DNA of 64,000 bases from positions 3,596,001 to 3,660,000 of the forward strand of contig NZ_QWEV01000005.1 in assembly GCF_003858395.1 (NCBI RefSeq). Direction: 5' to 3'. Both the position numbers and the translations under genes were made by a program. Below, one piece after another: positions 9,615-27,024 of the stretch (positions within the stretch are counted from its first letter, which is position 1; each line of letters opens with the position of its first letter). This DNA comes from Acidipila sp. EB88. GTDB taxonomy: Bacteria > Acidobacteriota > Terriglobia > Terriglobales > Acidobacteriaceae. The notes beneath the pieces were generated by a model. It saw nothing but the letters and a program-made list of their open reading frames with translations. It made no database searches and was not told where the DNA came from.

Positions 9615-11639
9615 ATGAGCACAGCACCCCAGCAGGAACAACTCGGCAACCAGGGCTCACGCTTGCGGTTCGGCCGCCTCGACGTGGCACTCGACTCAGT
9701 GGAGTCGGCGATCGGCCGCGTGCGGGACTGGCTCTTCTCGCAGCAGCACCCGGATGGCTACTGGTGCGGTGAGCTCGAAGCGGACTCGCTGCTCGAGGCC
9801 GACTACATCTTTGGCCACATGCTGCTGGGCACGGGAGACCCTGCCCGGCTCGAGCGCGCGCTTGCCGAGATGATGCGCACACAGGGAGAGGATGGCAGCT
9901 GGGCGAACTACCCCGGAGGGCCCGGCAATATCTCGGTCTCGGTCAAGTGCTACTTTGCCTGCAAGCTGATGGGCTGGTCGCAGGACGAGCCTCGCCTGGT
10001 CAGAGCGCGCGAGTGGATCCTGGCGAATGGCGGCGTGGTGGAGTGCAACACCTTCACCAAGATCTACCTTTGCTTCATGGGGCAGTACGAGTACGACGCG
10101 GTACCGGCTGTGCCGCCCGAGATCGTTCTGTTCCCGAACTGGTTCTACTTCAACATTTACGAGATCAGCTCGTGGTCGCGGGCGATCCTGGTGCCGTTGT
10201 CGATCGCCTACGCCAAGAAGCCGTTCAAAAAGATTGCTCCGGAGCAGGGCATCGATGAGCTGTTCGTGGGTGGCCGCGAGAACGCCAACCTGCACTTGCG
10301 CTGGGACCGTGAGAAGCCGGTCTCGTGGCGAAACTTCTTCCTGTTGACGGATCGTTTGACGCACTGGGCCGAGCGGGTGCATATCCGTCCGCTGCGGCGC
10401 ATGGCGCTGAAGCGCGCGGAAAAGTGGATGCTGGCCCGGCTCGAACTATCGGACGGCCTGGGCGCCATCTATCCGGCCATCCTGAACAGCATGATCGCGC
10501 TGCGCTGGCTGGGGTACTCAATTGACGACCCGCAGATGATCCGCGCGAGTGACGAGTTCGAGAAGCTCGGTATCGACGCGCCCGAGGGCACCGCCGACTA
10601 CGCCGAGCCGACCTTTCGCATGCAGCCGTGCGTATCGCCGGTGTGGGATACGGCCCAGGCCGTGTTCGCGCTGGGGGAAGCAGGGGTTGAGCGTACCGAC
10701 CCGCGCATGCTCAAGGCCGTGGACTGGATGCTGTCCAAGGAAGTCCGGCACAAGGGCGACTGGGCCGAGAAGGTGCGCAACACCGAGCCGGGCGGCTGGT
10801 ATTTCGAGTTTGCCAACGAGTGGTACCCGGACGTGGATGACACCGCGCAGGTACTGCTGGCACTGAACAAGGTCGACAACCCGCGCGAGCGCTACCAGTA
10901 CGACGTGTCCAAGCGTGCGCTCGACTGGATCTTCGCGATGCAGTGCCGCAATGGCGGCTGGGCATCGTTCGACAAAGACAACACCAAGATGATCTTCCAG
11001 TACATCCCGTTTGCCGATCACAACGCGATGCTGGACCCGCCGACGGTGGACATCACGGGCCGCGTGCTCGAGACGCTGTCGACCTATGGCTACACCCGCT
11101 CGGACAAGCGCATCGAGCGGGCGATCAAGTTCATCTTCGATGAGCAGGAGTCGGACGGCTCCTGGTTCGGACGCTGGGGCGTCAATTACCTGTATGGCAC
11201 GTTCCTGGTGCTGCGCGGGCTTGAGGCGATCGGTATCTGGAACCACGAGCCGCAGATTCAGCAGGCCGCCGAGTGGATCCGCATGGTGCAGAACGCGGAC
11301 GGCGGCTGGGGCGAAAGCTGCCTCTCCTACGATGAACCTGACCTGCGTGGCGTCGGCGCGAGCACGCCCTCGCAGACCGCCTGGGCGGTGCTCGGGCTGC
11401 TGTCAGCGGGCGACAAGCGTTCCGATTCGGTGGCCAAGGGCGTGCGCTGGCTGCTTGAGCACCAGGCGGAGTCGGGTGGGTGGGACGAGTCCACCGACGC
11501 TGCGACGCAGAAACAGGCGGTTTATACCGGTACAGGTTTTCCACGCGTGTTCTATCTCGCGTACCACCTGTACCGGGATTATTTCCCACTCCTCGCGCTG
11601 ACGACGTATAAACGCGCGATCGAACGCGGCGACGAGTAA
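9615..11639 (+). CDS. shc: Squalene-hopene cyclase (HpnF)
   Basis: Membrane-associated triterpene cyclase of 674 residues that converts squalene to hopene and hopanol. The catalytic acid motif DXDD is present as DVDD at residues 406-409 in the context WYPDVDDTAQV. Many QW-type repeats are visible (QQHPDGYW, QGEDGSW, QCRNGGWASF, QESDGSWFGRWG, QNADGGWGES). The C-terminal part has the typical TGFPRVFYLAYHLYRDYFP. The length fits the family. hpnH follows 22 bases downstream. Confidence 0.97.
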   Translation: MSTAPQQEQLGNQGSRLRFGRLDVALDSVESAIGRVRDWLFSQQHPDGYWCGELEADSLLEADYIFGHMLLGTGDPARLERALAEMMRTQGEDGSWANYPGGPGNISVSVKCYFACKLMGWSQDEPRLVRAREWILANGGVVECNTFTKIYLCFMGQYEYDAVPAVPPEIVLFPNWFYFNIYEISSWSRAILVPLSIAYAKKPFKKIAPEQGIDELFVGGRENANLHLRWDREKPVSWRNFFLLTDRLTHWAERVHIRPLRRMALKRAEKWMLARLELSDGLGAIYPAILNSMIALRWLGYSIDDPQMIRASDEFEKLGIDAPEGTADYAEPTFRMQPCVSPVWDTAQAVFALGEAGVERTDPRMLKAVDWMLSKEVRHKGDWAEKVRNTEPGGWYFEFANEWYPDVDDTAQVLLALNKVDNPRERYQYDVSKRALDWIFAMQCRNGGWASFDKDNTKMIFQYIPFADHNAMLDPPTVDITGRVLETLSTYGYTRSDKRIERAIKFIFDEQESDGSWFGRWGVNYLYGTFLVLRGLEAIGIWNHEPQIQQAAEWIRMVQNADGGWGESCLSYDEPDLRGVGASTPSQTAWAVLGLLSAGDKRSDSVAKGVRWLLEHQAESGGWDESTDAATQKQAVYTGTGFPRVFYLAYHLYRDYFPLLALTTYKRAIERGDE

Positions 11640-11661: not shown

Positions 11662-12795
11662 ATGGCAGTTCCCGTATCGCAGGCCTGGACAGTGGCCACC
11701 TACATCCTGAAGCAGAAGCTGAGTGGCCGGAAGCGGTTTCCGCTCGTCACCATGCTCGAGCCGCTGTTCCGCTGCAACCTGGCTTGTGCCGGCTGCGGCA
11801 AAATCCAGTATCCCGCGCACATCCTCAAGCAGGAGCTGTCGCCTGAAGAGTGCTTCCGCGCAGTCGAGGAAGCCGGAGCACCCATGGTGTCGATCCCGGG
11901 CGGCGAGCCGCTGCTGCACCCGCAGATTGCCGAGATCGTGGCGGGGCTGGTGGAGCGCAAGAAGTACGTGTACATGTGCACCAACGCGCTGCTGCTCAAG
12001 GAGAAGCTTCACCTCTTCAAGCCGTCCAAGTACCTGTCGTTCTCGGTGCACCTGGATGGGCAGCGCGAGCACCACGACTTTTCCGTCTGCCGTGAGGGCG
12101 GCTACGATATTGCGGTCGAAGGCATCAAGGCAGCGGTGGCGGCGGGCTTCCGTGTGACCACCAACACCACGCTGTTCGACGGAGCCGACCCGAACTCGGT
12201 GCGCGCGTTCTTCGACGAGCTGATGCAGCTCGGCGTCGAGGGCATGATGGTGGCACCCGGATACACCTACGAGAAGGCGCCCGACCAGAAGCACTTCCTG
12301 GGCCGCGCTCGTTCCCGCCGGTTGTTCCGCGCGATTCTGTCCAATCGCAAGCAGGCATGGAAGTTCAACGCGTCGCCCATGTACATGGAGTTCCTGATGG
12401 GCAAGCGGGAGTTTACCTGCACGCCCTGGGGCATGCCCGCGTACTCGGTGTTTGGCTGGCAGAAGCCCTGCTACCTGCTGCAGGACGGTTATGCGGACAC
12501 GTTCAACGAGCTGATCGAGACCACCGACTGGAACAACTACGGTACGGAGTCCGGCAACCCCAAGTGCGCAAACTGCATGGTGCACTCCGGGTATGAAGCC
12601 TCCGGCGCGTACTACACCTTTTCATCCTGGAAGGGCTTTGCCGAGACGGCGATGGCGACCCTGTTCTCGAAGTACGAGGACCGCGGCGCGCTGGACCTGT
12701 TGAATGAGCCGATCAAGCCGGCGCATGCGCCGCTGGTACAAATCGGCGCCAGCGCGGAAGCCCGTGCCGAGCAGAAGCACGAGACGGTGGCCTGA
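11662..12795 (+). CDS. hpnH: Adenosylhopane synthase HpnH (radical SAM)
   Basis: Radical SAM enzyme of 377 residues that adds the 5'-deoxyadenosyl radical to diploptene to form adenosylhopane, the first step of hopanoid side-chain synthesis. The cluster motif CxxxCxxC is at Cys38, Cys42 and Cys45 (RCNLACAGCGKIQ). The N-terminal MAVPVSQAWTVATYILKQKL and the segments SIPGGEPLLHP and CTPWGMPAYSVFGWQKPCY are typical of HpnH, including the C-terminal SPASM-like cysteines (CANCMVHSGYEA). A GAAGGGAAG purine tract precedes the ATG. Its stop overlaps the next start (TGATG). Confidence 0.96.
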   Translation: MAVPVSQAWTVATYILKQKLSGRKRFPLVTMLEPLFRCNLACAGCGKIQYPAHILKQELSPEECFRAVEEAGAPMVSIPGGEPLLHPQIAEIVAGLVERKKYVYMCTNALLLKEKLHLFKPSKYLSFSVHLDGQREHHDFSVCREGGYDIAVEGIKAAVAAGFRVTTNTTLFDGADPNSVRAFFDELMQLGVEGMMVAPGYTYEKAPDQKHFLGRARSRRLFRAILSNRKQAWKFNASPMYMEFLMGKREFTCTPWGMPAYSVFGWQKPCYLLQDGYADTFNELIETTDWNNYGTESGNPKCANCMVHSGYEASGAYYTFSSWKGFAETAMATLFSKYEDRGALDLLNEPIKPAHAPLVQIGASAEARAEQKHETVA

Positions 12796-13370
12796 TGAGC
12801 ACGAACGCTTCGCCGGACACGCCTGCCTCGACGCACTCGATCTACGCTCCCGGCTCCACGGAATCGCTGTCGCCGCTCGACCCGCACCAGGTGCCCAACT
12901 TCGGCACCGGCATCGCTTCGGGGCCGTCGACCGGAGCGGAGGAAATCAGCGGCAAGGGCATGGACGCGTTTGTGGATCCAGACCAGCTCGAGATCGCCGC
13001 AGGACGCGAGCGCGAGCAGTTGGAAGGCTGGGTGCCTGCTTTGGCCACCGACGCTGAAAAGCAGGAGGCTTTCGAGAAGGCATTCGACTACCGCGGCGAC
13101 GTGACGCTGACGCTGCGCGACGGATCGATCCTGACAGGCTACATCTTCGATCGCCGCGTGGGCAGCAGTCTTGCGACCTCCGTGGTGCGCATCATCCCCG
13201 CCTCCGAGCGAACCAAGATCTCTGTGCCTTACAGCGAGATCGCCGCGCTGAAGTTTACCGGGCGCGACACGGCTGCCGGCAAGAGCTTTGAAGCCTGGGT
13301 GAAGAAGTACCACGAGAAAAAAGCGGCAGGCGAAACCAACATCGCGATCACGCCGGAGACGCTCGACTAA
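12795..13370 (+). CDS. Uncharacterised soluble protein coupled to hpnH
   Basis: A 191-residue protein with no signal peptide or membrane helix. The first 60 residues are Ser/Thr/Pro/Gly-rich and probably disordered. The rest alternates a helical segment (EKQEAFEKAFDYR) with a compact beta-rich core (GDVTLTLRDGSILTGYIFDR) reminiscent of an SH3- or Sm-like fold, then KISVPYSEIAALKFTGRDTA. The ATG shares one base with the hpnH stop, so translation is almost certainly coupled. I do not recognise the family. Its position suggests a role tied to HpnH, for example as a scaffold or partner. Confidence 0.8.
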   Translation: MSTNASPDTPASTHSIYAPGSTESLSPLDPHQVPNFGTGIASGPSTGAEEISGKGMDAFVDPDQLEIAAGREREQLEGWVPALATDAEKQEAFEKAFDYRGDVTLTLRDGSILTGYIFDRRVGSSLATSVVRIIPASERTKISVPYSEIAALKFTGRDTAAGKSFEAWVKKYHEKKAAGETNIAITPETLD

Positions 13371-13416: not shown

Positions 13417-14301
13417 ATGAAGCATATGCCGGATCTTTCCCGCCGCGAAATCCTCGCCGCGCTTGCTGCACTAACAGCTACTGGCCTGGCGCTGACACCG
13501 CTCTCAGCCCAGGACGACCCACTCCAGGCAATGGAACATCGGTACGGCGGACGGCTTGGAGTGTTCGCGCTGGACCTGGCCACGGGGCGCACCCTCACTC
13601 ACCGTGCGGACGAGCGCTTTCTGTGGTGCTCCACCATGAAACTGCCGCTGGTGGCCGCGGTGCTGGCCCGCGTGGACCGCGGCGAGGAACGACTCGACGC
13701 GCCGGTGCACTACATGCGCCAGGACCTGTTTCCGCACTCGCCGGTGACCGAGCAGCACGTGGCTGAAGGCGCCATGTCGGTTGAGGAGTTGTGCGCTGCA
13801 GCCATGACGGTCAGCGACAACGGCGCAGCCAACCTGCTGCTGCGGCGCATCGGTGGGCCTGCGGCGCTCACCCGCTTCGTCCGGTCCGCCGGCGACGCGG
13901 TGTCGCGGTTCGATCGCTTTGAGCTTGCCCTGAACCGGCCATCGGGCGAGCTCGATACCACGACGCCACGGGCGGCGGTGATGCTGCTCAAGAGCCTGGT
14001 GCTGGGTACGGCGCTGGGTGCCGCTTCGCGCCGGCGCCTGGTCGAGTGGCTCTGTGCCACCACCGTGGGTGTGCATCGTCTGCGCGCGGGGTTCCCGGCC
14101 ACGTGGATGGTGGGTGACCGCACCGGCACCGGTGATACGGAAACTAATGACATCGCGGTGGCATGGCCTCAGGGTCGAGCCGCCGAGCGCCCCATCCTGG
14201 TGGCTGCGCTGTACAACCAGGGCGAGGACTCCGTCTCGATCGACACCCGCGAAGAAGCCATTCGCAACATAGGCAGTGTCATTGCGGGCTGGGCCAGGTA
14301 G
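13417..14301 (+). CDS. Class A beta-lactamase with Tat signal and Arg at position 234
   Basis: Serine hydrolase of 294 residues. The N-terminus LSRREILAALAAL is a twin-arginine-type signal, cut near residue 31. Class A motifs are complete: CSTMK (residues 71-75, catalytic Ser72 = Ambler S70), SDN (133-135) and the general base in FELALN (Glu169 = E166). The KTG triad reads RTG (235-237), as in CARB/PSE carbenicillinases. The Cys at Ambler 69 resembles carbapenemases such as KPC, but the partner Cys238 is absent. It lies 46 bases after the hopanoid gene 12795-13370 with GGAG before the ATG. Substrate range cannot be predicted. Confidence 0.93.
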   Translation: MKHMPDLSRREILAALAALTATGLALTPLSAQDDPLQAMEHRYGGRLGVFALDLATGRTLTHRADERFLWCSTMKLPLVAAVLARVDRGEERLDAPVHYMRQDLFPHSPVTEQHVAEGAMSVEELCAAAMTVSDNGAANLLLRRIGGPAALTRFVRSAGDAVSRFDRFELALNRPSGELDTTTPRAAVMLLKSLVLGTALGAASRRRLVEWLCATTVGVHRLRAGFPATWMVGDRTGTGDTETNDIAVAWPQGRAAERPILVAALYNQGEDSVSIDTREEAIRNIGSVIAGWAR

Positions 14302-14771: not shown

Positions 14772-15827
14772 ATGAAAGTCTTTATTACTGGCGCGACAGG
14801 ATTTCTCGGGGCCCATGTAGCCGCAGCACTGCTGGAGCAGGGTGCGACACTGCGGGTGCTGGTGCGCCCCACCAGCGATCTGCGCAACCTGGAGCGGCTC
14901 AGTGCATTTGAGTCGCATACCGGCGACCTGCGCCAGCCCGAGTCCCTGCGCCTTGGCCTGCGTGGCTGCGATGCGCTGATGCACGTGGCTGCTGATTACC
15001 GTTTGTGGGTGCGCGATCCGGACGAAATGTACGCCTCGAACGTGGAAGGCACGCGCGCATTGTTACAGCTTGCGCGCGATGAAAATGTTCCTCGCGCGGT
15101 GTACACGTCGAGCGTCGCGACCATGGGCTTTCACGAGAGCGGCCTCGTGGTCGATGAGGCAACGCCGGTCTCACTCAACAACATGGTTGGCCACTACAAG
15201 CGTTCCAAATACATGGCGGAAGAAGTGGCCCTTGCCGCAGCACGGGCAGGCCAGCATGTCATCACACTCAACCCGACCACCCCGATCGGACCGGGCGACC
15301 GCAAGCCGACGCCTACCGGTCGCATCGTGGTGGATTTTCTGAACGGTAACTTTCCCGCTTACATGGACACCGGACTCAACCTCGTGGACGTGACCGAGGT
15401 CGCCCGCACCCATGTTGCGGCGCTTGAACGCGGAACGCCGGGTGAGCGCTACATCCTGGGCGGCGAAAACCTGACGCTCAAGCAGATCCTCGACAAGATG
15501 TCGGCGATTACCGGGATTCCCTCGCCGAAGCACAAGGTGCCGCATAGTGTGGCTGCCACTTTCGCATTCTTCGATGAATGGATCACCGGGCGCTTACGTG
15601 GCCGCGAGCCGCGCGCGACGGTCGAGGCGGTGCGGATGGGGCGAAAGAAGATGTTTGCATCGTCGGCGAAAGCAGAGGCAGAGCTGGGTTTTCGCGTGCT
15701 GCCTGTGTACCCGGCGCTCCGGGCTGCCATTGACTGGTTCCGCGCCAATGGCTATGCGCCAGCGGGCGGGGCCCAGGGTGATCCGGTCGATCTTGGTTCG
15801 CCACCGAACATTGGAGCAAGCGCATGA
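14772..15827 (+). CDS. hpnA: Hopanoid-associated sugar epimerase HpnA
   Basis: Extended short-chain dehydrogenase of 351 residues. Rossmann motif GATGFLG at residues 7-13, TSSVATMG, and the catalytic YxxxK (HYKRSKYMAEE). The opening MKVFITGATGFLGAHVAAAL and the segment NPTTPIGPGDRKPTPTGRIV match HpnA. The family is always tied to hopanoid clusters, but its reaction is not settled. A TACAAT -10 candidate lies at 14755-14760, giving a very short leader; AGCAGG may serve as SD. The ATGA overlap with hpnG shows coupling. Confidence 0.92.
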   Translation: MKVFITGATGFLGAHVAAALLEQGATLRVLVRPTSDLRNLERLSAFESHTGDLRQPESLRLGLRGCDALMHVAADYRLWVRDPDEMYASNVEGTRALLQLARDENVPRAVYTSSVATMGFHESGLVVDEATPVSLNNMVGHYKRSKYMAEEVALAAARAGQHVITLNPTTPIGPGDRKPTPTGRIVVDFLNGNFPAYMDTGLNLVDVTEVARTHVAALERGTPGERYILGGENLTLKQILDKMSAITGIPSPKHKVPHSVAATFAFFDEWITGRLRGREPRATVEAVRMGRKKMFASSAKAEAELGFRVLPVYPALRAAIDWFRANGYAPAGGAQGDPVDLGSPPNIGASA

Positions 15828-16510
15828 TCAACGTCGGCATCATTGCCGCACTCCCCGCTGAGCTGCACCCGCTGGTCCGCGAGTGGCCTCGAACCGACCA
15901 GGTGTTCTGCGGCCAGATCGGAAACCTACAGTGCTTTGCCGCTGCCGAAGGTATGGGTGCGGACGCTGCCACGCGCTCGTTCGCGGCGGTGCGCGCGGCC
16001 GCCGGGCAGCTGGATGCGGTGCTTTCCTATGGCTGGTCGGGCGCGCTCTCCTGCGGGGTCAAGCCGCCACAGGTGCACCCTGTGCGCGAAGTGGTGGATG
16101 CGGGTACGGGCGAGCGCTTTCGCACGATTTCGCCGGAAGCCACGCAGCGGCTGGTGACGCTGAACCACGTGGCACGTCCTGACGAAAAGCGCCCACTGGC
16201 TGAGCGTTACCAGGCTTCGCTTGTGGACATGGAGGCGGCTACAGTGGGCCGGCTGGCCCGCGCACACGGGATTCCGTTTCTGTGCCTGCGCGGCATCTCC
16301 GACGGGTACACCGACCACATGCCCGACTTCAACCCCTTTATCGATGGGCGCGGACAGCTGCGTACCGCCCGGTTTCTGCTGCGCACACTGGTGCGTCCGG
16401 CGGACTGGGGCGCGCTGCTGACGCTGCAGCGGCAGAGCAGCGAGTCTGCCCGGTTACTGGCGCGTGAAATTCCTAACCTGCTGGCAAGCGCCAAGTTGGT
16501 ATCCTACTAA
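15824..16510 (+). CDS. hpnG: Hopanoid-associated phosphorylase HpnG
   Basis: Nucleoside-phosphorylase-like enzyme of 228 residues that removes adenine from adenosylhopane to give ribosylhopane. The start MINVGIIAALPAELHPLV, the SYGWSGALS motif and the VDMEAATVGRLA motif (substrate-binding Met-Glu of the MTA/SAH nucleosidase fold) are all visible, as is the C-terminal SDGYTDHMPDF. Its ATG overlaps the hpnA stop by four bases, and the next gene starts two bases after its stop. Confidence 0.93.
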   Translation: MINVGIIAALPAELHPLVREWPRTDQVFCGQIGNLQCFAAAEGMGADAATRSFAAVRAAAGQLDAVLSYGWSGALSCGVKPPQVHPVREVVDAGTGERFRTISPEATQRLVTLNHVARPDEKRPLAERYQASLVDMEAATVGRLARAHGIPFLCLRGISDGYTDHMPDFNPFIDGRGQLRTARFLLRTLVRPADWGALLTLQRQSSESARLLAREIPNLLASAKLVSY

Positions 16511-16512
16511 CC

Positions 16513-17730
16513 ATGGGTATAGCGACACACATCTCTGAGCCGCGCTCCGAAACCGTTGCAGAGCCAGTTTCGAAGCCGGCATCCGAGTCGCTGCCTTCCG
16601 CAGTATCGGCCCGGAGTCCGCTTGACGGTCCTCGCGTCCCGGCGATGATGCAGGCAGCCGTTTATCGTGGCGTTGACGACGTTCGCATCGAACAGGTCGA
16701 AACGCCCGAGATTGCAGCGGGTGAAGTGCTTTTGCGCGTAGAAGCATGCGGAATCTGCGGCACGGACCTGAAGAAGATTCATACCGGCTCCCACTCGGCC
16801 CCGCGCGTCTTCGGGCATGAGACAGCCGGTACGGTAATTGCCGTCGGCGAAGGAGTCACTGCATTCGCGCCGGGCGATCGCGCCATGGTGTTTCATCACA
16901 TTCCCTGCGGTCACTGTTACTATTGCCGCAAAAAGACGTTTGCGCAGTGCCCCGTCTACAAGAAGGTCGGTGTCACCGCGGCCTACGAGCCTTCTGGCGG
17001 AGGGTTCGCGCAATATGTGCGAGTGATGGACTGGATTGTGGAGCGGGGGCTCGTGAGGGTTCCGGATGGAATCCCGTTTGAGCAGGCGGCCTTCATTGAG
17101 CCGGTCAACACCTGTCTGAAGGCCATCAAGAACCTGGCGCTCGAGGCGGACGAGACCGTGCTCGTAATCGGGCAGGGCCCGATCGGGATCATCCTGGCTG
17201 CGCTGGCTGCCCGGACCGGGGCAAAGGTGCTTACCTCTGATCTGTATGCGGAACGACACGCGGTGGCTGCGGGCTACGGACTGTCGCACCCAATCGACGC
17301 AGCGAGGGAAGACGTTGTGGCGCGCGCGCATGCCGAGACGGAAGGCCGAGGAGTGGACGCTGCCATTGTGGCGGTGGCGGGTGATCCGTTGATCAAGGTC
17401 GCGATGAACGCGACCCGTTGTGGCGGCCGAGTGCTGCTGTTCGCGCAGACCCAGCATGGCGACGCGCCGATTGATCCGGCGGCGATCTGCATGGACGAGA
17501 AGGCGCTGATCGGCTCCTACAGTGCCTCGGTCGAGATCCAGGATGAAGGGGCTGCGCTTGTGTTCGAGGGGTATCGCAACGGCTTCGATCTTACCGGACT
17601 CATCTCGCACCGGTTTGCGCTTGCCGACGCCGTGGAGGCAATCGATCTTGCTTCGCATCCCGTGGCCGATTCGATGAAGATTTTTATCCTGCCCCAGCAA
17701 CAGCCCGGCAGCGAGGCAGGGAAGCGATGA
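16513..17730 (+). CDS. Zinc-dependent medium-chain dehydrogenase 1 of hopanoid operon
   Basis: MDR-superfamily alcohol/polyol dehydrogenase, up to 405 residues. Catalytic zinc ligands are seen in CGICGTDLK, FGHETAG and IEPVNTC. The four structural-zinc cysteines are in CGHCYYCRKKTFAQC. The NAD(P)-binding glycine motif is VIGQGPIG. The first 44 residues are a Ser/Pro-rich extension before the fold starts at MMQAAVYRG, so a start at 16645 or 16648 is possible, although no SD supports it. It lies between hpnG and a second dehydrogenase with coupled starts. It is a candidate for ribosylhopane reduction or other side-chain redox; that is inference only. Confidence 0.88.
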   Translation: MGIATHISEPRSETVAEPVSKPASESLPSAVSARSPLDGPRVPAMMQAAVYRGVDDVRIEQVETPEIAAGEVLLRVEACGICGTDLKKIHTGSHSAPRVFGHETAGTVIAVGEGVTAFAPGDRAMVFHHIPCGHCYYCRKKTFAQCPVYKKVGVTAAYEPSGGGFAQYVRVMDWIVERGLVRVPDGIPFEQAAFIEPVNTCLKAIKNLALEADETVLVIGQGPIGIILAALAARTGAKVLTSDLYAERHAVAAGYGLSHPIDAAREDVVARAHAETEGRGVDAAIVAVAGDPLIKVAMNATRCGGRVLLFAQTQHGDAPIDPAAICMDEKALIGSYSASVEIQDEGAALVFEGYRNGFDLTGLISHRFALADAVEAIDLASHPVADSMKIFILPQQQPGSEAGKR

Positions 17731-18794
17731 GCCTGCTGAAGCGATCCCCCCACGGCCCGACGATGCAGGCTGCCGTGTTGTATGGCAAGGAAGACCTGCG
17801 GCTCGAGACAGTGCCGCGTCCCCGCGCTGCCGCGGGTGAAATTGTTCTGCAGGTAGGCGCCGCGCTGACCTGCGGAACCGACCTCAAGGTATTCCGGCGT
17901 GGGTATCACGCGCGCATGCTCAAGCCGCCAATCCCGTTCGGGCATGAAATCGCGGGCGTAGTCGCCGAAGCCGGCGAAGGCTCGACCTTTCGCGTGGGCG
18001 ACCGCGTGGTGGCGCTTAATTCTGCCCCGTGCGGACAGTGCTTCTTCTGCCGTCGCGACCAGGCCAACCTGTGCAACGACCTGCTCTTCAACAACGGTGC
18101 GTATGCGGAGTTTCTGCGGGTGCCGGCACGCATCGCGGGCAAAAACACTTTGCGCGTGCCCGACTACCTGCCGCTCGAGCATGCCGCGCTGACGGAACCC
18201 CTGGCGTGCGTCATGCTGGGGCTCGAAGAGGCCAATGCGCGCCCCGGCGATACGCTTGCAGTGATTGGCTGTGGTCCTATCGGCCTGCTGTTTGTGCATG
18301 CCGCGGCGCTTTCGGGCATGCACGTGATCGCCATCGCCAAGCACCGCGAGCAGGCAGCAATCGCCAAAGAACTCGGCGCGGCCGAAATCGTGATGCTGGA
18401 GCGGGACCAGAGCCCCGTGAATGCGGTGCGGGCGCTTACCGAGGAAAGCCGTGGCGTGGACATCGCGATCGAGGCCGTTGCCTCGCCCACAACGTGGGGA
18501 TGGGCGGTGGACATGGCCCGCAAGGGCGGTACGGTGAACTTTTTCGGAGGCCCCCCGGCCGGCACCCAGGTGCAGCTCGACACCAACCAGCTGCACTACA
18601 GCGGGCTTTCCCTGCGCGCGAGTTTTCATCACACGCCGCGCACGGTGCGTCGTGCCTTCGCGCTGCTGGCGGGCGGCCGCTTCCAGACACGGCAGTTTCT
18701 TACCGCGCGTGCCTCCCTCGGCGATGTAGTCTCGCTGTATCGCACCATGAGCAGTGGAGCCACGCGGGGCATCAAGACGGTGATTCTTCCTTAG
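17727..18794 (+). CDS. Zinc-dependent medium-chain dehydrogenase 2 of hopanoid operon
   Basis: A second MDR enzyme, 355 residues, starting inside the stop of the first (ATGA overlap). Catalytic zinc residues are in ALTCGTDLK, FGHEIAG and LTEPLAC. Structural zinc cysteines are in CGQCFFCRRDQANLC. The cofactor motif is VIGCGPIG. It is only moderately similar to the first copy, so the pair looks like an old duplication with diverged specificity or a heteromeric enzyme. hpnC starts two bases after its stop. The substrate is unknown. Confidence 0.88.
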   Translation: MSLLKRSPHGPTMQAAVLYGKEDLRLETVPRPRAAAGEIVLQVGAALTCGTDLKVFRRGYHARMLKPPIPFGHEIAGVVAEAGEGSTFRVGDRVVALNSAPCGQCFFCRRDQANLCNDLLFNNGAYAEFLRVPARIAGKNTLRVPDYLPLEHAALTEPLACVMLGLEEANARPGDTLAVIGCGPIGLLFVHAAALSGMHVIAIAKHREQAAIAKELGAAEIVMLERDQSPVNAVRALTEESRGVDIAIEAVASPTTWGWAVDMARKGGTVNFFGGPPAGTQVQLDTNQLHYSGLSLRASFHHTPRTVRRAFALLAGGRFQTRQFLTARASLGDVVSLYRTMSSGATRGIKTVILP

Positions 18795-18796
18795 TC

Positions 18797-19807
18797 ATGG
18801 CGACCTTTCCGATCGAGCACGACCCTCAGGCCCGGCCCGGTGAACAGCCCGACGCGGAACGCGCGCAGCTGCTTGCAGCAGGCTGGGCTGCGCTGCCTGC
18901 CGCGTACCGGCCGCCGTCCTACACGCCCAGTCTCGAGGAAGCCCGGCGCTGGTGCCAGCACCTCACCGAGACACACTACGAGAACTTCCACGTGGCCAGC
19001 ATTTTTCTGCCGGCCCGCATGCGCACGCACTTTCACGCCATTTACGCGTACTGCCGCGTGTCCGACGACCTTGGCGACGAGGTAGGCGACGCAGCCCAGT
19101 CGCTGGCCCTGCTGGATTGGTGGCAGGAACAGCTTGAGCTTTGCTACCGTGGTATTGCGACGCACCCTGTGTTCGTGGCGCTGCTCCCGACGATCCAGGC
19201 CTGCAACATTCCGATCAAGCCGTTCGCCGACCTGCTGCACGCCTTCCGGCAGGACCAGCACACGACCCGTTTCGCCTCGATTGAAGACGTGCTCGACTAC
19301 TGCCGCTACTCGGCGAACCCGGTGGGCCGGCTGGTGCTTTATGTCGCGGGCTACCGGGATGAAGAGCGTTTTCGCCTGTCGGACCAGACCTGCACCGCAC
19401 TGCAGCTTGCGAACTTCTGGCAGGACGTGCGGGTCGACCACGAGAAGGGCCGGATCTACCTTCCCCAGGCCGATATGAAGCGTTTCAAGGTCACGGAGGC
19501 GATGCTGGCCGAAGGCATTGCCGCACGCGTGGCCAACCCTGCAGTGCGGGAGCTGCTCCGCTATGAAGTGGGGTATGCGCGGGTGATGTTCCGCAGCGGG
19601 ATGCCATTGATCGGCATGGTGAATCGCGAGCTTGCTGTGGACCTGGACCTGTTCTCCCGCGGCGGCCTGGAGATTTTGCGGGCCATCGAAAAGCAGGAGT
19701 TCGACGTGCTGTGTGCGCGTCCTTCCATCTCCAAACCACGCAAAGCTGCTTTGCTTCTGCACGCAATCGCCGGCAAGTACCTGCGCCTGCGAGGCAGCAA
19801 GGGCTGA
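18797..19807 (+). CDS. hpnC: Squalene synthase HpnC (hydroxysqualene synthase)
   Basis: Phytoene/squalene synthase family protein of 336 residues. In the three-step bacterial route HpnC converts presqualene diphosphate to hydroxysqualene. The first Asp motif is in YCRVSDDLGDEVGD and the second in NFWQDVRVDHEKGRIYLP. ENFHVASIFLP and HFHAIYAYCR are typical of the HpnC branch. The ATG at 18797 directly follows the dehydrogenase stop; a longer open frame upstream is only the shadow of that gene. The next gene starts five bases on. Confidence 0.94.
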   Translation: MATFPIEHDPQARPGEQPDAERAQLLAAGWAALPAAYRPPSYTPSLEEARRWCQHLTETHYENFHVASIFLPARMRTHFHAIYAYCRVSDDLGDEVGDAAQSLALLDWWQEQLELCYRGIATHPVFVALLPTIQACNIPIKPFADLLHAFRQDQHTTRFASIEDVLDYCRYSANPVGRLVLYVAGYRDEERFRLSDQTCTALQLANFWQDVRVDHEKGRIYLPQADMKRFKVTEAMLAEGIAARVANPAVRELLRYEVGYARVMFRSGMPLIGMVNRELAVDLDLFSRGGLEILRAIEKQEFDVLCARPSISKPRKAALLLHAIAGKYLRLRGSKG

Positions 19808-19812
19808 GCCGA

Positions 19813-22347
19813 GTGCCGACACCTTCCGAGATTCTCAACAGCGCGTACCGCACCTGCCGCCTCATCGCGCGCAGGGAGGCGAAGAACTTCTACTTTGCAT
19901 TCCTGGCGTTGCCCCCGGCCAAGCGCAATGCCATCTGCGCGGTGTATGCGTTTATGCGGCAGGCCGACGACATCTCTGATGACGAGTCCGTGCCGCGTGC
20001 CGAGCGGCGTGCCCGCATGGCTGCCTGGACGGCGGCCTGGCACCAGGCTGCGACACTGGGAAACTCCGACGACCCGGTCTTTTTCGCCCTGAACGATGCC
20101 CGTCTCCGCTTCCGGATCCCGCTGACGCTGCTGGACCAGCTCGTGGAAGGCACGACGATGGATCTCAGCGAGGAGCATGACGCGGGGCAGACCTTCGCCG
20201 ATTACGCCGCGCTCCGCCACTACTGCTACCTGGTGGCATCGGTGGTGGGGCTGGTGTGCATTCGCATCTTTGAGTACAGCGGCGCGGAAGCCGAGTCACT
20301 TGCCGAGGAGCTGGGCATTGCGTTCCAGCTGACCAACATCCTGCGGGACGTGCGGGAAGATGCCGAGCGTGGCCGCGTGTATCTCCCGGTCGATGAGCTG
20401 GATGCCTATGGCTTTACGCCCGAGTCGCTTGCCGCTGCCGCGCGCAGTGGCAAGGCGCCCGACGCCACGATGCGCACCATGCTGGCCGCGCAGTGCACGC
20501 GCGCCGATCAGCTGTATCGCTCCGGGACTCTCTTGTTGCCGTACATCGCGCCTGACAGCCGTCCTGCGCTGCAGGTGCTGATGCAGATCTACCATCGGCT
20601 GCTGCTGCGCATCCGGCGTGCAGACTACGACGTGTTTACCGAGCGGCACAGTGTACCGACCGCAGAAAAGCTCGGGCTGCTTGCGCGCGGGCTGATGCGC
20701 ACGTTCGGCGTGCGGGTGCTGCGCACCCGGCATGAGTCTCCCGAGGGTGCGCGCACTGCTGTCCTGCCGGGTACCGCCAGCACTTTGCAGACCCCCGGTA
20801 CGCCCAAGATGCAGCCTTCTGCCGGCTCGCCGGCAATGCTGGATTCGGTGACGTGTTCGTGTAGCCGGGTATCAGTCGATCCGTTCGGGCAGAATTCCAA
20901 GCACGGTTCGGGGCGTTCCGTCGCTATCGTGGGCGCCGGGGTCTCGGGCCTCGCGGCTGCCTGCGCGCTTGCCGAAGCCGGCCACGCTGTGACGGTTTTT
21001 GAGCGGCGACCCTACGTGGGTGGACGTGCATCGTCGTACCTCCATCCTGGTTCGGGCGAGGTCATCGATAACTGCCAGCACATCCTGCTGGGCTGCTGCA
21101 CCAGCCTGCGCTCGCTGCTGGAGCGGGTGGGGCGCGCCGACGCGATTGCCTGGACTTCGGCCATCACCTACATCGAACCGGGCGGCCGCCGCAGTGTCGT
21201 GCAGCCCACGGCACTGCCCGCGCCGCTGCAGTCCGCGCCCTCGTTCCTGCGGGCACGGTGCTTCTCCCCGGGAGACAAGCGCGCCATTGCGCACGGTCTG
21301 CGCCAGTTCTTCTCGGGCTACCCGGTCGACACGCCGGGTGGCGAAAGCTTTCTTGCGTGGGCGCTGCGAAACCGGCAGACGCCGGGAGCGATCAAGCGGT
21401 TCTGGGAGCCGATCCTGCAGTCCGCGCTCAATGATGATCTGGACCGCATCTCGGTGCATTACGCGGGCAAGGTGCTCAAGGAGTCCTTCCTGAACTCGGC
21501 CGAGGCCGGGCAGATCGGCGTGCCGCTGTTGCCGCTGTCAGAGATGTATGCGGGCGCGGCGCGCTACCTCGTGCAGCTAGGCGGCACGGTGCACCTGCGC
21601 ACCTCGGTGGAGAAGCTGGAGCAGGTTACGGAGGCTGGGCGTGACACGGTCGGGTGGCGCGTGCATACGGCCGACGGTCCCCATGCCGGGGTGTTCGACG
21701 ACGTAATCGTTGCGCTCCCGTTCGAAGCCACGCAGCGTCTCGTCCCTGCACTGCCGGCCGGGCCGGATCGTGACGAGCTCGCGCATACCCTGGAGCAGTT
21801 TGAGCATGTGCCGCTGGCCGGTGTGCATCTCTGGTTCGATCGAGAGATCACCGAGCTGGCGCATGCCGTCCTACTGGATACCACGATCCAGTGGATGTAC
21901 CAGCGCGACAAGCTGCGACCGAAAGAAGCCTCCGCGGATGCATCGGCGGCAGCCTCCGGCAGTCACCTCGAGCTTGTCATCAGCGTCGCTCACAAGCTGG
22001 TGCCAATGACGCAGCCCGAAATCATCGAGCTCGCCTTGCGGGAGCTTGCGCTGTTCTTTCCGGCCGTTGCCGAAGCTACCCTGCTCAAGGGCGTCGTGAC
22101 CAAGGAAGTGCGCGCCACCTTCGCCGTTACGCCGGGGGTGGATGCCCACCGGCCTGGTGCGCGCACTGCGTGGCCAGGGTTGTTCCTCGCCGGTGACTGG
22201 ACAGACACGGGCTGGCCCGCGACCATGGAAGGCGCGGCCCGCTCCGGATTCCTTGCCGCGGAGGCCGTGCATGCCCGGTCGGGCCATTACCGGCGATTCG
22301 TGGCTCCCGACCTCCCGCCGCGCGGGCTGATGCGTTTTCTCGGCTAG
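19813..22347 (+). CDS. hpnDE: HpnD-HpnE fusion: presqualene diphosphate synthase + hydroxysqualene dehydroxylase
   Basis: One uninterrupted reading frame of 844 codons from a GTG at 19813. Residues 1 to about 290 are HpnD (condenses two FPP to presqualene diphosphate): QADDISDDE (Asp52-57) and NILRDVREDAERGR (Asp179, Asp183). A Pro/Ser/Cys-rich linker spans about 300-365. From residue 368 the chain is HpnE, a flavin amine-oxidase-type enzyme that removes the hydroxyl of hydroxysqualene: VAIVGAGVSGLAAACALAEA (FAD motif, Gly374-Gly379) and the C-terminal GLFLAGDWTDTGWPATMEGA. In model organisms hpnD and hpnE are separate genes. No internal stop or frameshift is visible, and no clear internal SD start for HpnE. 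Confidence 0.92.
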   Translation: MPTPSEILNSAYRTCRLIARREAKNFYFAFLALPPAKRNAICAVYAFMRQADDISDDESVPRAERRARMAAWTAAWHQAATLGNSDDPVFFALNDARLRFRIPLTLLDQLVEGTTMDLSEEHDAGQTFADYAALRHYCYLVASVVGLVCIRIFEYSGAEAESLAEELGIAFQLTNILRDVREDAERGRVYLPVDELDAYGFTPESLAAAARSGKAPDATMRTMLAAQCTRADQLYRSGTLLLPYIAPDSRPALQVLMQIYHRLLLRIRRADYDVFTERHSVPTAEKLGLLARGLMRTFGVRVLRTRHESPEGARTAVLPGTASTLQTPGTPKMQPSAGSPAMLDSVTCSCSRVSVDPFGQNSKHGSGRSVAIVGAGVSGLAAACALAEAGHAVTVFERRPYVGGRASSYLHPGSGEVIDNCQHILLGCCTSLRSLLERVGRADAIAWTSAITYIEPGGRRSVVQPTALPAPLQSAPSFLRARCFSPGDKRAIAHGLRQFFSGYPVDTPGGESFLAWALRNRQTPGAIKRFWEPILQSALNDDLDRISVHYAGKVLKESFLNSAEAGQIGVPLLPLSEMYAGAARYLVQLGGTVHLRTSVEKLEQVTEAGRDTVGWRVHTADGPHAGVFDDVIVALPFEATQRLVPALPAGPDRDELAHTLEQFEHVPLAGVHLWFDREITELAHAVLLDTTIQWMYQRDKLRPKEASADASAAASGSHLELVISVAHKLVPMTQPEIIELALRELALFFPAVAEATLLKGVVTKEVRATFAVTPGVDAHRPGARTAWPGLFLAGDWTDTGWPATMEGAARSGFLAAEAVHARSGHYRRFVAPDLPPRGLMRFLG

Positions 22348-22436: not shown

Positions 22437-24290
22437 TTGTTGAACGTTCCCGGTAGTTCGCAACCCATTGAGAACCATGCTGTCATCGGCAATATGCGCT
22501 CTGCAGCCGTTATCGCTGTTGACGGCACTATTGATTTCTTCTGCTTTCCTAACTTTGACTCGCCGACGATCTTTGCTTCGCTGCTGGACACGCAGAAGGG
22601 TGGCTGCTTCCGCATCGACCCCCAGATGGACGATGTGCGCTACAAGCAGCTTTACCTGCCCGACACCAACATCCTGTTGACCCGGTATCTGTCCGAGTGC
22701 GGGGTAGCCGAGGTGACGGACTTTATGCCGGTGACCGAGGAAGGCGCGCAAAGCGCTTACGCCAATCAGATCATCCGCATGGTGCGCGTCATCAAGGGGA
22801 CGGTTCGATTCCAGGTGCGATGCGCGCCGCGTTTTGACTACGCGCGTGGCGATCACCGTGTCGAGCGGCAAGGTGATGCCGTCTGCTTTTGCCCGCAGCA
22901 GCAGGAGCTTCGCTCCATGGCCCTGCACGCCACAGTGCCGCTGACGATTAATGACAACGAAGCGGAGGCTGACTTCACCCTGAACCAGGGTGAGGCTGCC
23001 TCCTTTGCCTTCGGTGCAATTTTGCCGGAAGAGAAGGACCGCCGCGAGCTTCTGGATCCGGAACGGATCGAGCACTGCTTTAAGGAGACTGCGCAGTTCT
23101 GGCGGGACTGGATGGCGAAGTCAGCCTACAAGGGCCGCTGGCGCGAAATGGTGAACCGTTCTGCGTTGACGCTGAAGCTTCTTTTCGACGAGCAGCATGG
23201 CGCCACCATCGCTGCCGTTACCTTCGGGCTGCCGGAGCAGATCGGGGGCTCTCGCAACTGGGACTACCGGTACACCTGGCTGCGCGACTCTTCCTTCTCC
23301 CTGTATGCGCTGGTGCGGCTTGGCTTTTCAAGCGAAGTGCGCGCCTACACCACCTGGCTGCGTGAGCGGGTGATGGATGGCCTCAAGAACGACACCGAGG
23401 ATGGCCCGCTGCGGATCATGTACCGCTCCGACGGGACCAGCGACCTGGAAGAGACTGAACTTTCGCATCTCGCGGGCTATCGCGACTCGCGGCCGGTGAG
23501 AATCGGTAACGGCGCCAACAGTCAACTCCAGCTCGACATCTACGGCGAAGTCATGGATGCGGTGTACCTGTCCAACAAGTACTCCGATGGCATTTCCAAG
23601 GACGGCTGGCGCCGCATCTGCCGGTTGATGGACTGGCTGTGCAAGAACTGGCGACGGCCGGACGAGGGCATCTGGGAGATGCGCGGCGGCCGCCGCGAAA
23701 TGCTGCATTCTCGCCTGATGTCGTGGGTCGCGTTCGACCGCGCCATTCGCCTTGCCGACAAGCGCTCGCTGGAAGCGCCATTGCGTGAGTGGTACGAGGC
23801 GCGCCGGCTGATCAACGAAGACATCCTGGACAACTTCTGGGACGAGGAGTTGCAGTCATTCGTGCAGGTCAAGGGAGAAAAGGCGGTCGACGCAGCCATG
23901 CTGCTGATGCCCATGCTGCGTTACATCAGCCCCACCGACCCTCGCTGGCTTTCTACCCTGAAGCGGATCGAGGAAGAGCTCACCGAGGATAGTCTCGTGT
24001 TCCGCTATGCGCCGGGCTCCGACGGCATGGAGGGTGCGGAAGGTTCGTTTACGGCCTGCTCGTTCTGGTTTATCGAATGCCTCGCGCGCTCGCAGCAGCT
24101 AGACAAGGCGCGGTTGCTGTTCGACAAGATGCTAGGGTACGCCAACCATGTCGGGCTGTACTCCGAGCAACTCGGTTCGAGCGGCGAGCACCTGGGCAAC
24201 TTTCCTCAGGCGCTGACACACCTTGCGCTGATCAGCACTGCGACCTACCTGAACAAGGCTCTGGATGGCGGCAAAGGGGAGTGGCTCTAG
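22437..24290 (+). CDS. Glycoside hydrolase family 15 protein (glucoamylase/trehalase-like)
   Basis: Cytoplasmic GH15-type glucosidase of 617 residues, no signal peptide. The N-terminal beta-sandwich opens with IENHAVIGNMRSAAVIAVDG and DFFCFPNFDSPTIFA. The catalytic (alpha/alpha)6 barrel carries GGSRNWDYRYTWLRDSSF, PDEGIWEMRGG with the likely general acid Glu, and YSEQLGSSGEHLGNFPQALTH with the likely base. The start is TTG at 22437, placed six bases after GGAGG; a second TTG follows directly. Bacterial members often act on trehalose or maltose-type sugars. It follows hpnDE by 89 bases, so linkage to hopanoid synthesis is uncertain. Confidence 0.88.
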   Translation: MLNVPGSSQPIENHAVIGNMRSAAVIAVDGTIDFFCFPNFDSPTIFASLLDTQKGGCFRIDPQMDDVRYKQLYLPDTNILLTRYLSECGVAEVTDFMPVTEEGAQSAYANQIIRMVRVIKGTVRFQVRCAPRFDYARGDHRVERQGDAVCFCPQQQELRSMALHATVPLTINDNEAEADFTLNQGEAASFAFGAILPEEKDRRELLDPERIEHCFKETAQFWRDWMAKSAYKGRWREMVNRSALTLKLLFDEQHGATIAAVTFGLPEQIGGSRNWDYRYTWLRDSSFSLYALVRLGFSSEVRAYTTWLRERVMDGLKNDTEDGPLRIMYRSDGTSDLEETELSHLAGYRDSRPVRIGNGANSQLQLDIYGEVMDAVYLSNKYSDGISKDGWRRICRLMDWLCKNWRRPDEGIWEMRGGRREMLHSRLMSWVAFDRAIRLADKRSLEAPLREWYEARRLINEDILDNFWDEELQSFVQVKGEKAVDAAMLLMPMLRYISPTDPRWLSTLKRIEEELTEDSLVFRYAPGSDGMEGAEGSFTACSFWFIECLARSQQLDKARLLFDKMLGYANHVGLYSEQLGSSGEHLGNFPQALTHLALISTATYLNKALDGGKGEWL

Positions 24291-25351: not shown

Positions 25352-26839
25352 CTATACGCCTGCGCTGACTGCTTCCCGCGATTCGCGGGCCTTGTCACTC
25401 TTGCTTTGCTTCACCATCTTGTTGCGCTCGCTGCGCAGCTTCAGGAACGACTTGGCTTCCACGTACAGGCGAGGCAGGTCGCGGTTGACTACTGCTTTCC
25501 ACACCACGCGGAACGCGGCCTTGGGGCGGAAGTAGTACTCATCGTAGAAGCGGTGCACCATCTCGAGCACATACTCGGTTGGCAACCCCGGGTACTCGAT
25601 GTGCGCCAACTGATGTCCACCTTCGTCGACCATCTTGGTCTCATTGGTGATGAACCCGTGCTGCTTGGCGTAATCGAAGAACTCGGTGCCCGGGAAAGCG
25701 TGTGCGATCGAGACCTGGATCGTTTCGACGTCGAGCTGCTTCGCAAAATCGATCGTGTTGCGGATCGACTCGGCCGTCTCGCCTGGCAGGCCCAGGATAA
25801 AGTCACCGTGGATGATCAGACCGAGATCGTGGCAGTCCTTCACGAAGTCGCGCGCGCGCTGTACGGTAGCGCCCTTCTTGATGTTCTTGAGGATCTGCGG
25901 ATCGCCTGACTCAAAGCCGACGATGAGCAAACGGCAGCCGGCATCCTTCATCGCCTTGAGCGTGTCGCGGTCGGTGGTGACACGCGAGGTGCAACTCCAC
26001 GTAAGGCCGAGCGGCTTGAGCTTGGCGCAGAGCTCGATGGTGCGCGCCTTCTGGATGTTGAAGGTGTCGTCGTCGAAGAAGAACTCTTTCACTTCCGGAA
26101 AGAGCTTCTTGGCGTGCGCCATTTCGGCGGCCACATCATCGGTAGAGCGCTTGCGCCAAGCATGGCCCGACAGCGTCTGCGGCCAGAGGCAGAACGTGCA
26201 CTGCGCCGGGCAGCCGCGCGTGGAGTAAAGCGCCACGTACGGGTGCAGCAGGAAGGGCACGTTGTACTTGGTGACGTCGAGGTCGCGCTTGTAGATGTCG
26301 GTGACCCAGGGCATGTCCGGACGGTCCAGCTTCTCGACCTGCGCACGATCCGGGTTGTGGATGTGCTTGCCCGAGGCATCGCGGTACGAGATGCCCAGGA
26401 TCTCCGCGAGCGGCTTGCCTTCGGCAAACTCGACCACGGAGAAGTCGAACTCGCGGCGGCAGATGAAGTCAATTGCCGCACACTCGTCCAGCGCCTTGTC
26501 GGTGTCAGTGGTGACGGGCGGCCCGACAAACGCGATCTTCAGGTTCGGGTACGCTGCCTTGACCTTTTCCGCCGCGCGCTGATCGCCGGTCCAGCCGATG
26601 GTGCTGGTGAACAGCACCAGAAACTCATAATCCTTGAGGATCTCGATCACGCCATCCCAGGACACATGGTGGGGATTGGCATCGAGCAGGCGGGAGCCTT
26701 CCAGCATGCCGGCCGGGTACGCCAGCCACACCGGGTACCAGTAGCTCTCGATCTCACGGGTCGCGGGCCAGCGTGAGCTGGCGCCACCATCAAAATTCTC
26801 AAAGGAGGGCGGGTTCAGAAACAGTGTCTTTAGCGGCAT
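25352..26839 (-). CDS. hpnJ: Hopanoid biosynthesis radical SAM protein HpnJ
   Basis: B12-binding-domain radical SAM protein of 495 residues, associated with the cyclitol ether head group of bacteriohopanetetrol. It opens with LFLNPPSFENFDGGASSRWP, followed by an N-terminal B12-binding-like domain. The cluster motif CxxxCxxC is in RGCPAQCTFCLWPQ, and GFESGDPQIL and HGDFILGLPGE follow as in B12-radical SAM enzymes. The ATG at 26863 lies inside a TAAAAT -10 candidate (26862-26867), so the second ATG at 26839 (MPLKTLFLNPP) is preferred; it also matches the family N-terminus. It is transcribed against the other hpn genes. Confidence 0.92.
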   Translation of the reverse strand: MPLKTLFLNPPSFENFDGGASSRWPATREIESYWYPVWLAYPAGMLEGSRLLDANPHHVSWDGVIEILKDYEFLVLFTSTIGWTGDQRAAEKVKAAYPNLKIAFVGPPVTTDTDKALDECAAIDFICRREFDFSVVEFAEGKPLAEILGISYRDASGKHIHNPDRAQVEKLDRPDMPWVTDIYKRDLDVTKYNVPFLLHPYVALYSTRGCPAQCTFCLWPQTLSGHAWRKRSTDDVAAEMAHAKKLFPEVKEFFFDDDTFNIQKARTIELCAKLKPLGLTWSCTSRVTTDRDTLKAMKDAGCRLLIVGFESGDPQILKNIKKGATVQRARDFVKDCHDLGLIIHGDFILGLPGETAESIRNTIDFAKQLDVETIQVSIAHAFPGTEFFDYAKQHGFITNETKMVDEGGHQLAHIEYPGLPTEYVLEMVHRFYDEYYFRPKAAFRVVWKAVVNRDLPRLYVEAKSFLKLRSERNKMVKQSKSDKARESREAVSAGV

Positions 26840-27024
26840 ATCCGTATGGGTCAAGTCTAACATTTTAAGTTGGCGTGACCACGTTTCCAGCCTGTAATCG
26901 CAAGCTCAAACCCGCGCAGGGCAGCTCACGGGGACGGGCGACGTGCCGCATATCCGCTGATACGAACTGCACCACAACCGGTGCGGCCGGGCTTGGGGTT
27001 CCCTCCGCAGGCAGTTCGCACGCA
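26840..27024. other. hpnJ promoter region
   Basis: A gap of about 185 bases between hpnJ and the acetyltransferase stop, both on the minus strand. It contains a TAAAAT box (26862-26867, minus strand) with a weak CTGGAA 17 bases upstream, a plausible hpnJ promoter. Nothing else was recognised. Confidence 0.4.

Follow-up and report, generated by a model that had tools for sequence, protein, structure and literature searches.

Which enzyme reduces ribosylhopane to bacteriohopanetetrol (BHT)? Bacteriohopanepolyols are widely used bacterial biomarkers in sediments, and the reductase that forms BHT from ribosylhopane is without an assigned gene. The question is raised by a hopanoid locus of Acidipila sp. 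EB88 (assembly GCF_003858395.1, contig NZ_QWEV01000005.1) in which two dehydrogenase genes, here called DH1 and DH2, follow hpnG. The window, that is, the whole stretch analysed, comprises 64,000 nucleotides (3,596,001-3,660,000 of the forward strand), and all coordinates given here are window positions. A first-pass annotation of this DNA regarded the enzyme for the step as not firmly assigned and put the pair forward as candidate ribosylhopane reductase. On the first point a paper of November 2025 (PMC12583986) says likewise, describing the enzyme as not established, and our literature search found no paper naming the ribosylhopane reductase. Cell-free reduction of ribosylhopane in Methylobacterium organophilum (Bodlenner et al. 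2015), as cited in PMC12583986, is the same reaction as that proposed for the pair, but there an activity is known without a gene.

The plus strand of the window carries shc for squalene-hopene cyclase (9615-11639; TIGR01507, 723 bits) and hpnH for adenosylhopane synthase (11662-12795; TIGR03470, 542 bits), followed by hpnA for a hopanoid-associated SDR 'sugar epimerase' (14772-15827; TIGR03466, 474 bits, cut-off 368) and hpnG (15824-16510) for a nucleoside phosphorylase-like protein thought to strip adenine from adenosylhopane. HpnG scores only 76 bits against its own family model TIGR03468 (cut-off 187), and is assigned from this weak match together with its PNP_UDP_1 fold and its position, both of which fit. 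Then come DH1 (16513-17730), DH2 (17727-18794), hpnC for hydroxysqualene synthase (18797-19807; TIGR03464, 343 bits, over cut-off) and a fused hpnD-hpnE reading frame (19813-22347), with HpnE over its cut-off at 440 bits and HpnD under its cut-off of 279 at 226 bits. This frame is open from a GTG at 19711 (878 aa, to 22347), the GTG at 19813 being the likelier start; in three other loci (L111, L116 and L117) hpnD and hpnE are separate genes. The radical SAM gene hpnJ (25352-26863; TIGR03471, 736 bits) lies on the minus strand. Directly 3' of hpnH is ug3 (12795-13370), whose 191 aa product has no match in Pfam or NCBIfam and has counterparts of 53-71% identity in several relatives (L096, L099, L116 and L118).

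The five genes from hpnA to hpnC are tightly coupled, as had been described at first pass: hpnA overlaps hpnG, and DH1 overlaps DH2, by an ATGA, and two bases separate hpnG from DH1 and DH2 from hpnC. The dehydrogenases do stand right after hpnG. The start of DH1 is uncertain because about 37 N-terminal residues (the first 37-43) show no conservation and are modelled with low confidence; if translation begins internally near 16642, which is possible, hpnG and DH1 would be about 130 bp apart.

Both proteins are zinc-dependent medium-chain (MDR) dehydrogenases by their domains, zinc ligands, Rossmann GxGxxG motif and overall fold. Each contains ADH_N and ADH_zinc_N over the Pfam gathering score; in position, DH1 lies after hpnG and DH2 before hpnC or hpnD. 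In DH1 the catalytic zinc site is formed by C82, H102 and E196 and the structural site by C132, C135, C138 and C146. Every one of the 57 DH1-type rows of the alignment has the catalytic Cys/His/Glu and the four structural Cys, as do all or nearly all the 59 DH2-type rows, which upholds the earlier claim of complete zinc sites in both proteins. The NAD(P) motifs claimed for both are also present, although they differ in type. Asp or Glu at the end of the second nucleotide-fold strand is the usual sign of NAD(H), and Gly, Ala or Val followed by Arg-Arg or Lys-Arg that of NADP(H). The motif reads SDLYAER in DH1 and AKHREQ in DH2 (GRR or GKR in relatives); at the strand end Asp/Glu is found in 46 of 46 hopanoid-linked DH1 rows, and Gly/Ala/Val, mostly then Arg-Arg or Lys-Arg, in 43 of 44 hopanoid-linked DH2 rows. 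The motifs thus predict an NAD(H)-type DH1 and an NADP(H)-type DH2, and this difference makes it unlikely that the two are interchangeable; they probably have different jobs.

The predicted structures (mean pLDDT 86 for DH1 and 92 for DH2) both match MDR structures with Z about 40, the nearest folds being those of polyol and ketose dehydrogenases of the MDR superfamily. For both proteins 4ej6/4ejm ranks first, a putative zinc-binding dehydrogenase of Sinorhizobium meliloti solved with NADP (Z 43.5 for DH2 and 40.8 for DH1), at about 30% identity. Sorbitol dehydrogenase, ketose reductase 1e3j and xylitol dehydrogenase 7y9p share the fold and the catalytic and structural zinc ligands at about 24-29% identity; unlike these enzymes, DH1 and DH2 have hopanoid synthesis as their genomic setting. 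Named MDR equivalogs (threonine, galactitol-phosphate, idonate, scyllo-inosose and other dehydrogenases) were rejected as identities for the pair, every NCBIfam cut-off being missed; the highest scores were 144 and 156 bits, where 380 and 450 are required.

Scanning a single genome for each species yielded 80 loci, 75 of them treated as acidobacterial, whose gene maps were drawn by tblastn. A search of related genomes for the same gene order had been suggested in the first-pass annotation, and the order hpnA-hpnG-DH1-DH2-hpnC is indeed kept in about 70 acidobacterial loci. Most of the 75 have shc-hpnH-hpnA-hpnG-DH1-DH2-hpnC-hpnD-hpnE. Upstream of DH1 lies hpnG in 71 and hpnA in two; downstream, DH2 follows DH1 in 74 and hpnC follows the pair in 64. 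As the order repeats in dozens of species, the arrangement is not due to chance. Where clusters are split, the two genes keep different company. Throughout family f1, to which the window belongs, DH1 is immediately 3' of hpnG (27 of 27 loci), DH2 is away from DH1 in 18 loci, and a DH2 placed elsewhere precedes hpnC-hpnD. The order in family f28 is ispH-hpnA-DH1-DH2-hpnD. Therefore, DH1 tracks hpnA-hpnG and DH2 tracks hpnC-hpnD-hpnE. One f1 genome (G007) has no match to hpnG, DH1 or DH2, yet its hpn contig stops just past ug3, so the absence carries no firm weight. A MAG titled Bacillota (L142) has a typical acidobacterial hopanoid operon and may be misnamed or mixed.

The genes themselves were already noted in 2017 by Sinninghe Damste et al. 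(PMC5462960), whose description of acidobacterial hopanoid clusters places ug1 after hpnA-hpnG and ug2 before hpnC-hpnD-hpnE, both of unknown function. DH1 is ug1 and DH2 is ug2, matched by position rather than accession. In that description ug2 is an alcohol dehydrogenase that binds Zn and is about 350 aa long, ug1 is given no protein family, and neither is given a step or a cofactor. What is added here is the link to a second phylum and the split in cofactor type.

The pair and HpnH tend to occur together. Among 247 acidobacterial genomes HpnH scores over its cut-off in 65, and a close DH1 is found in 42 (E values up to 2e-106, before a jump to 6.5e-56 at the next match), all with a close DH2 and 39 with HpnH. 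In two of the three exceptions (G103 and G230) hpn genes flank the pair and the assemblies are fragmented. The genome G209, which is 100% complete, has a close pair without HpnH and without squalene-hopene cyclase (SHC); the neighbours of this pair, as read by eye, are presumably QueF and proline dehydrogenase. The close pair is missing in 26 of the 65 HpnH-positive genomes. Many of these have shc-hpnH-hpnA-hpnG without any dehydrogenase, and in several a diverged MDR pair is present at another place. Alternative reductases were sought by eye near hpnG in operons of this other type (L080-L094), and no obvious one was seen. The downstream frames there we take, again by eye, to encode squalene synthase-like and glycosyltransferase-like proteins, IPP isomerase, HMG-CoA reductase, and flavin monooxygenase-like and decarboxylase-like proteins. 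HpnG, searched with a single protein as query, was not traced in distant lineages.

Five loci lie beyond the Acidobacteriota, three titled Chthonomonadales, Chthonomonas or Armatimonadetes and one a Verrucomicrobia MAG, and HpnH is over cut-off in all five genomes. The phylum of the Chthonomonadales genome (G247), Armatimonadota, was sampled with 151 genomes. DH1 was detected in 17 of them and DH2 in exactly those 17 (E 1.2e-95 or better, the matches that follow being at 2e-66 and 4e-68). HpnH is present in 30 of the 151, and in 14 of the 17 pair carriers against about 3.4 expected; the hypergeometric p of 3.5e-9 is too small, because the test takes genomes as independent and ignores phylogeny. 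The close pair is missing in 16 of the 30 HpnH-positive genomes. The pair or DH2 adjoins or is near hpnC-hpnD-hpnE in seven of the 17 carriers: hpnC is directly after DH2 in G326, G287, G382, G281 and G359 and within 1 kb in G333, and in G252 DH2 is ahead of hpnC-hpnD-hpnE with DH1 on a separate contig. SHC and HpnH were searched for in three of these (G252, G281 and G359) and neither was found. A further genome, G249, has HpnH with no SHC seen, so gaps in assembly are a plausible reason for missing SHC or HpnH.

A quick-search tree of 116 rows places the hopanoid-linked DH1 in one clade (46 rows, SH-aLRT 99) and the hopanoid-linked DH2 in another (SH-aLRT 95; 45 rows, one of which is a lone acidobacterial DH2-like row), both separate from the diverged acidobacterial pairs. 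The separate clades indicate that the pair arose by an old duplication. The tie to hopanoid genes is common to two phyla, whether by descent or by transfer. The diverged tandem pairs were rejected as orthologues, since in the tree they lie apart from the hopanoid-linked clades and some of their host genomes have no HpnH. Such pairs, unlinked to hpn genes and in some cases without HpnH or SHC, are seen in other acidobacterial families (L062-L071 and L073).

The acidobacterial gene order, the joint occurrence with HpnH in two phyla and the adjacency to hpnC-hpnD-hpnE in the second make the link to the hopanoid pathway strong, and we are confident, short of certainty, that DH1 and DH2 have a role in hopanoid metabolism. 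As to the step, the best single reading, and a tentative one, is that DH1 or DH2 is the ribosylhopane reductase in these organisms. The two, an old pair of paralogous zinc-dependent medium-chain dehydrogenases, would act on C35 hopanoids at their polyol end. HpnH would add adenosine and HpnG would then remove adenine to leave ribosylhopane, the open-chain form of which would bind the catalytic zinc. DH2 with NADPH would reduce the C35 aldehyde to BHT, and DH1 with NAD(H) would carry out a second redox step on this side chain, serving either as an alternative reductase or to dehydrogenate a hydroxyl next to it. On the grounds of its predicted cofactor, DH2 is the better candidate. With two candidate genes, a clear genomic case in two phyla and differing cofactor predictions, the question becomes testable, and resolving the role of the pair would aid prediction of which lineages make which C35 hopanoids.

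The pair is not the general ribosylhopane reductase, given its absence from the 26 acidobacterial and 16 armatimonad HpnH-positive genomes. Of the first-pass proposal, gene order and co-occurrence bear out the tie to the hopanoid pathway, and the reductase role is plausible for these organisms. That annotation had itself held that relatives making BHT without the genes would speak against it. Such a relative is Chloracidobacterium thermophilum (type species), which, according to the part of PMC5462960 that treats it, produces BHT and BHT cyclitol ether and lacks ug2; it counts against a universal role. Three presumed Chloracidobacterium genomes (G087, G113 and G153) have only a diverged DH2-like gene. 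An orthologue is thus not found wherever BHT is made, and if the pair is the reductase, HpnH-positive genomes without it would need a different one. Also counting against a reductase role are the two cofactor motifs, which exceed the needs of one reduction, the wider conservation of HpnA, another protein with an NAD(P) fold, the pair of G209 without HpnH or SHC, and the three Armatimonadota without detectable SHC or HpnH.

The opposite cofactor motifs, kept across two phyla, would suit a two-step chemistry in which DH1 with NAD+ oxidises a side-chain hydroxyl and DH2 with NADPH reduces the ketone, ribosylhopane being reduced by another enzyme; the product would be a stereoisomer of BHT or a modified BHT. 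The likeness of the pair to secondary-alcohol polyol dehydrogenases, its patchy presence, as expected of an optional modification, and the occurrence of HpnA in both operon types are consistent with such stereo-inversion or remodelling. The cofactor assignment, however, comes from a motif, and DH1 and DH2 can sit in separate clusters; overall, this alternative seems unlikely, if worth keeping in mind. Since the NAD/NADP split leaves two-step remodelling open, a dedicated couple that inverts or remodels a side-chain hydroxyl through a ketone, besides or instead of reducing ribosylhopane, may also be entertained, at low probability. If real, it would give Acidobacteriota and Armatimonadota a branch of hopanoid synthesis not recognised so far.

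The linkage to hpnC-hpnD-hpnE likewise leaves open a role in the steps that form squalene, or on a squalene-derived C30 product, rather than on the C35 side chain. DH2 adjoins hpnC or hpnD in split clusters, and hpnC-hpnD-hpnE are beside or near the pair or DH2 in the seven Armatimonadota, including the three without detectable SHC or HpnH. DH1, however, remains with hpnA-hpnG, and one genome (G127) retains DH2 where hpnC is missing at that place. Furthermore, the relevant passages of PMC5462960 report ug2 from every SD1 and SD3 genome, including some that lack hpnC and/or hpnE, and cite Pan et al. 2015 for HpnC, HpnD and HpnE being sufficient for squalene in E. coli. A squalene-side role is therefore rather improbable.

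Ribosylhopane reduction by HpnA, with DH1 and DH2 accessory or redundant, was suggested for the step to BHT, as far as HpnA is concerned, in PMC5462960, and hpnA is present in both acidobacterial operon types. The same source, where it discusses hpnA, reports that Burkholderia cenocepacia can make BHT without the gene and that Rhodopseudomonas lacks it, and hpnA is missing in six of 48 hpnH-bearing alphaproteobacteria (PMC12583986), so we consider this very unlikely. A general polyol dehydrogenase pair co-transcribed with hopanoid genes by happenstance would account for the diverged tandem pairs in acidobacteria without HpnH and for the close pair of G209, but is hard to credit when the association with hopanoid genes is repeated in two phyla.

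A few other features of these loci may be recorded. Putative armatimonad hopanoid operons (L200, L202 and L217-L232) have the order hpnH-hpnA-ispH-like-hpnG, with shc in several, and their ispH-like gene has about 30% identity to the ispH of the window. Two loci, L187 (11204-12031) and L188 (5898-6229), share a gene after DH2 that is methyltransferase-like by eye and has no NCBIfam match. In the window, a class A beta-lactamase family gene (13417-14301; 275 bits, cut-off 200) separates the part of the cluster with hpnH from that with hpnA, and hpnE is followed by a trehalase/glucoamylase-like gene (22437-24290; TreH1 387 bits, under the cut-off of 820).
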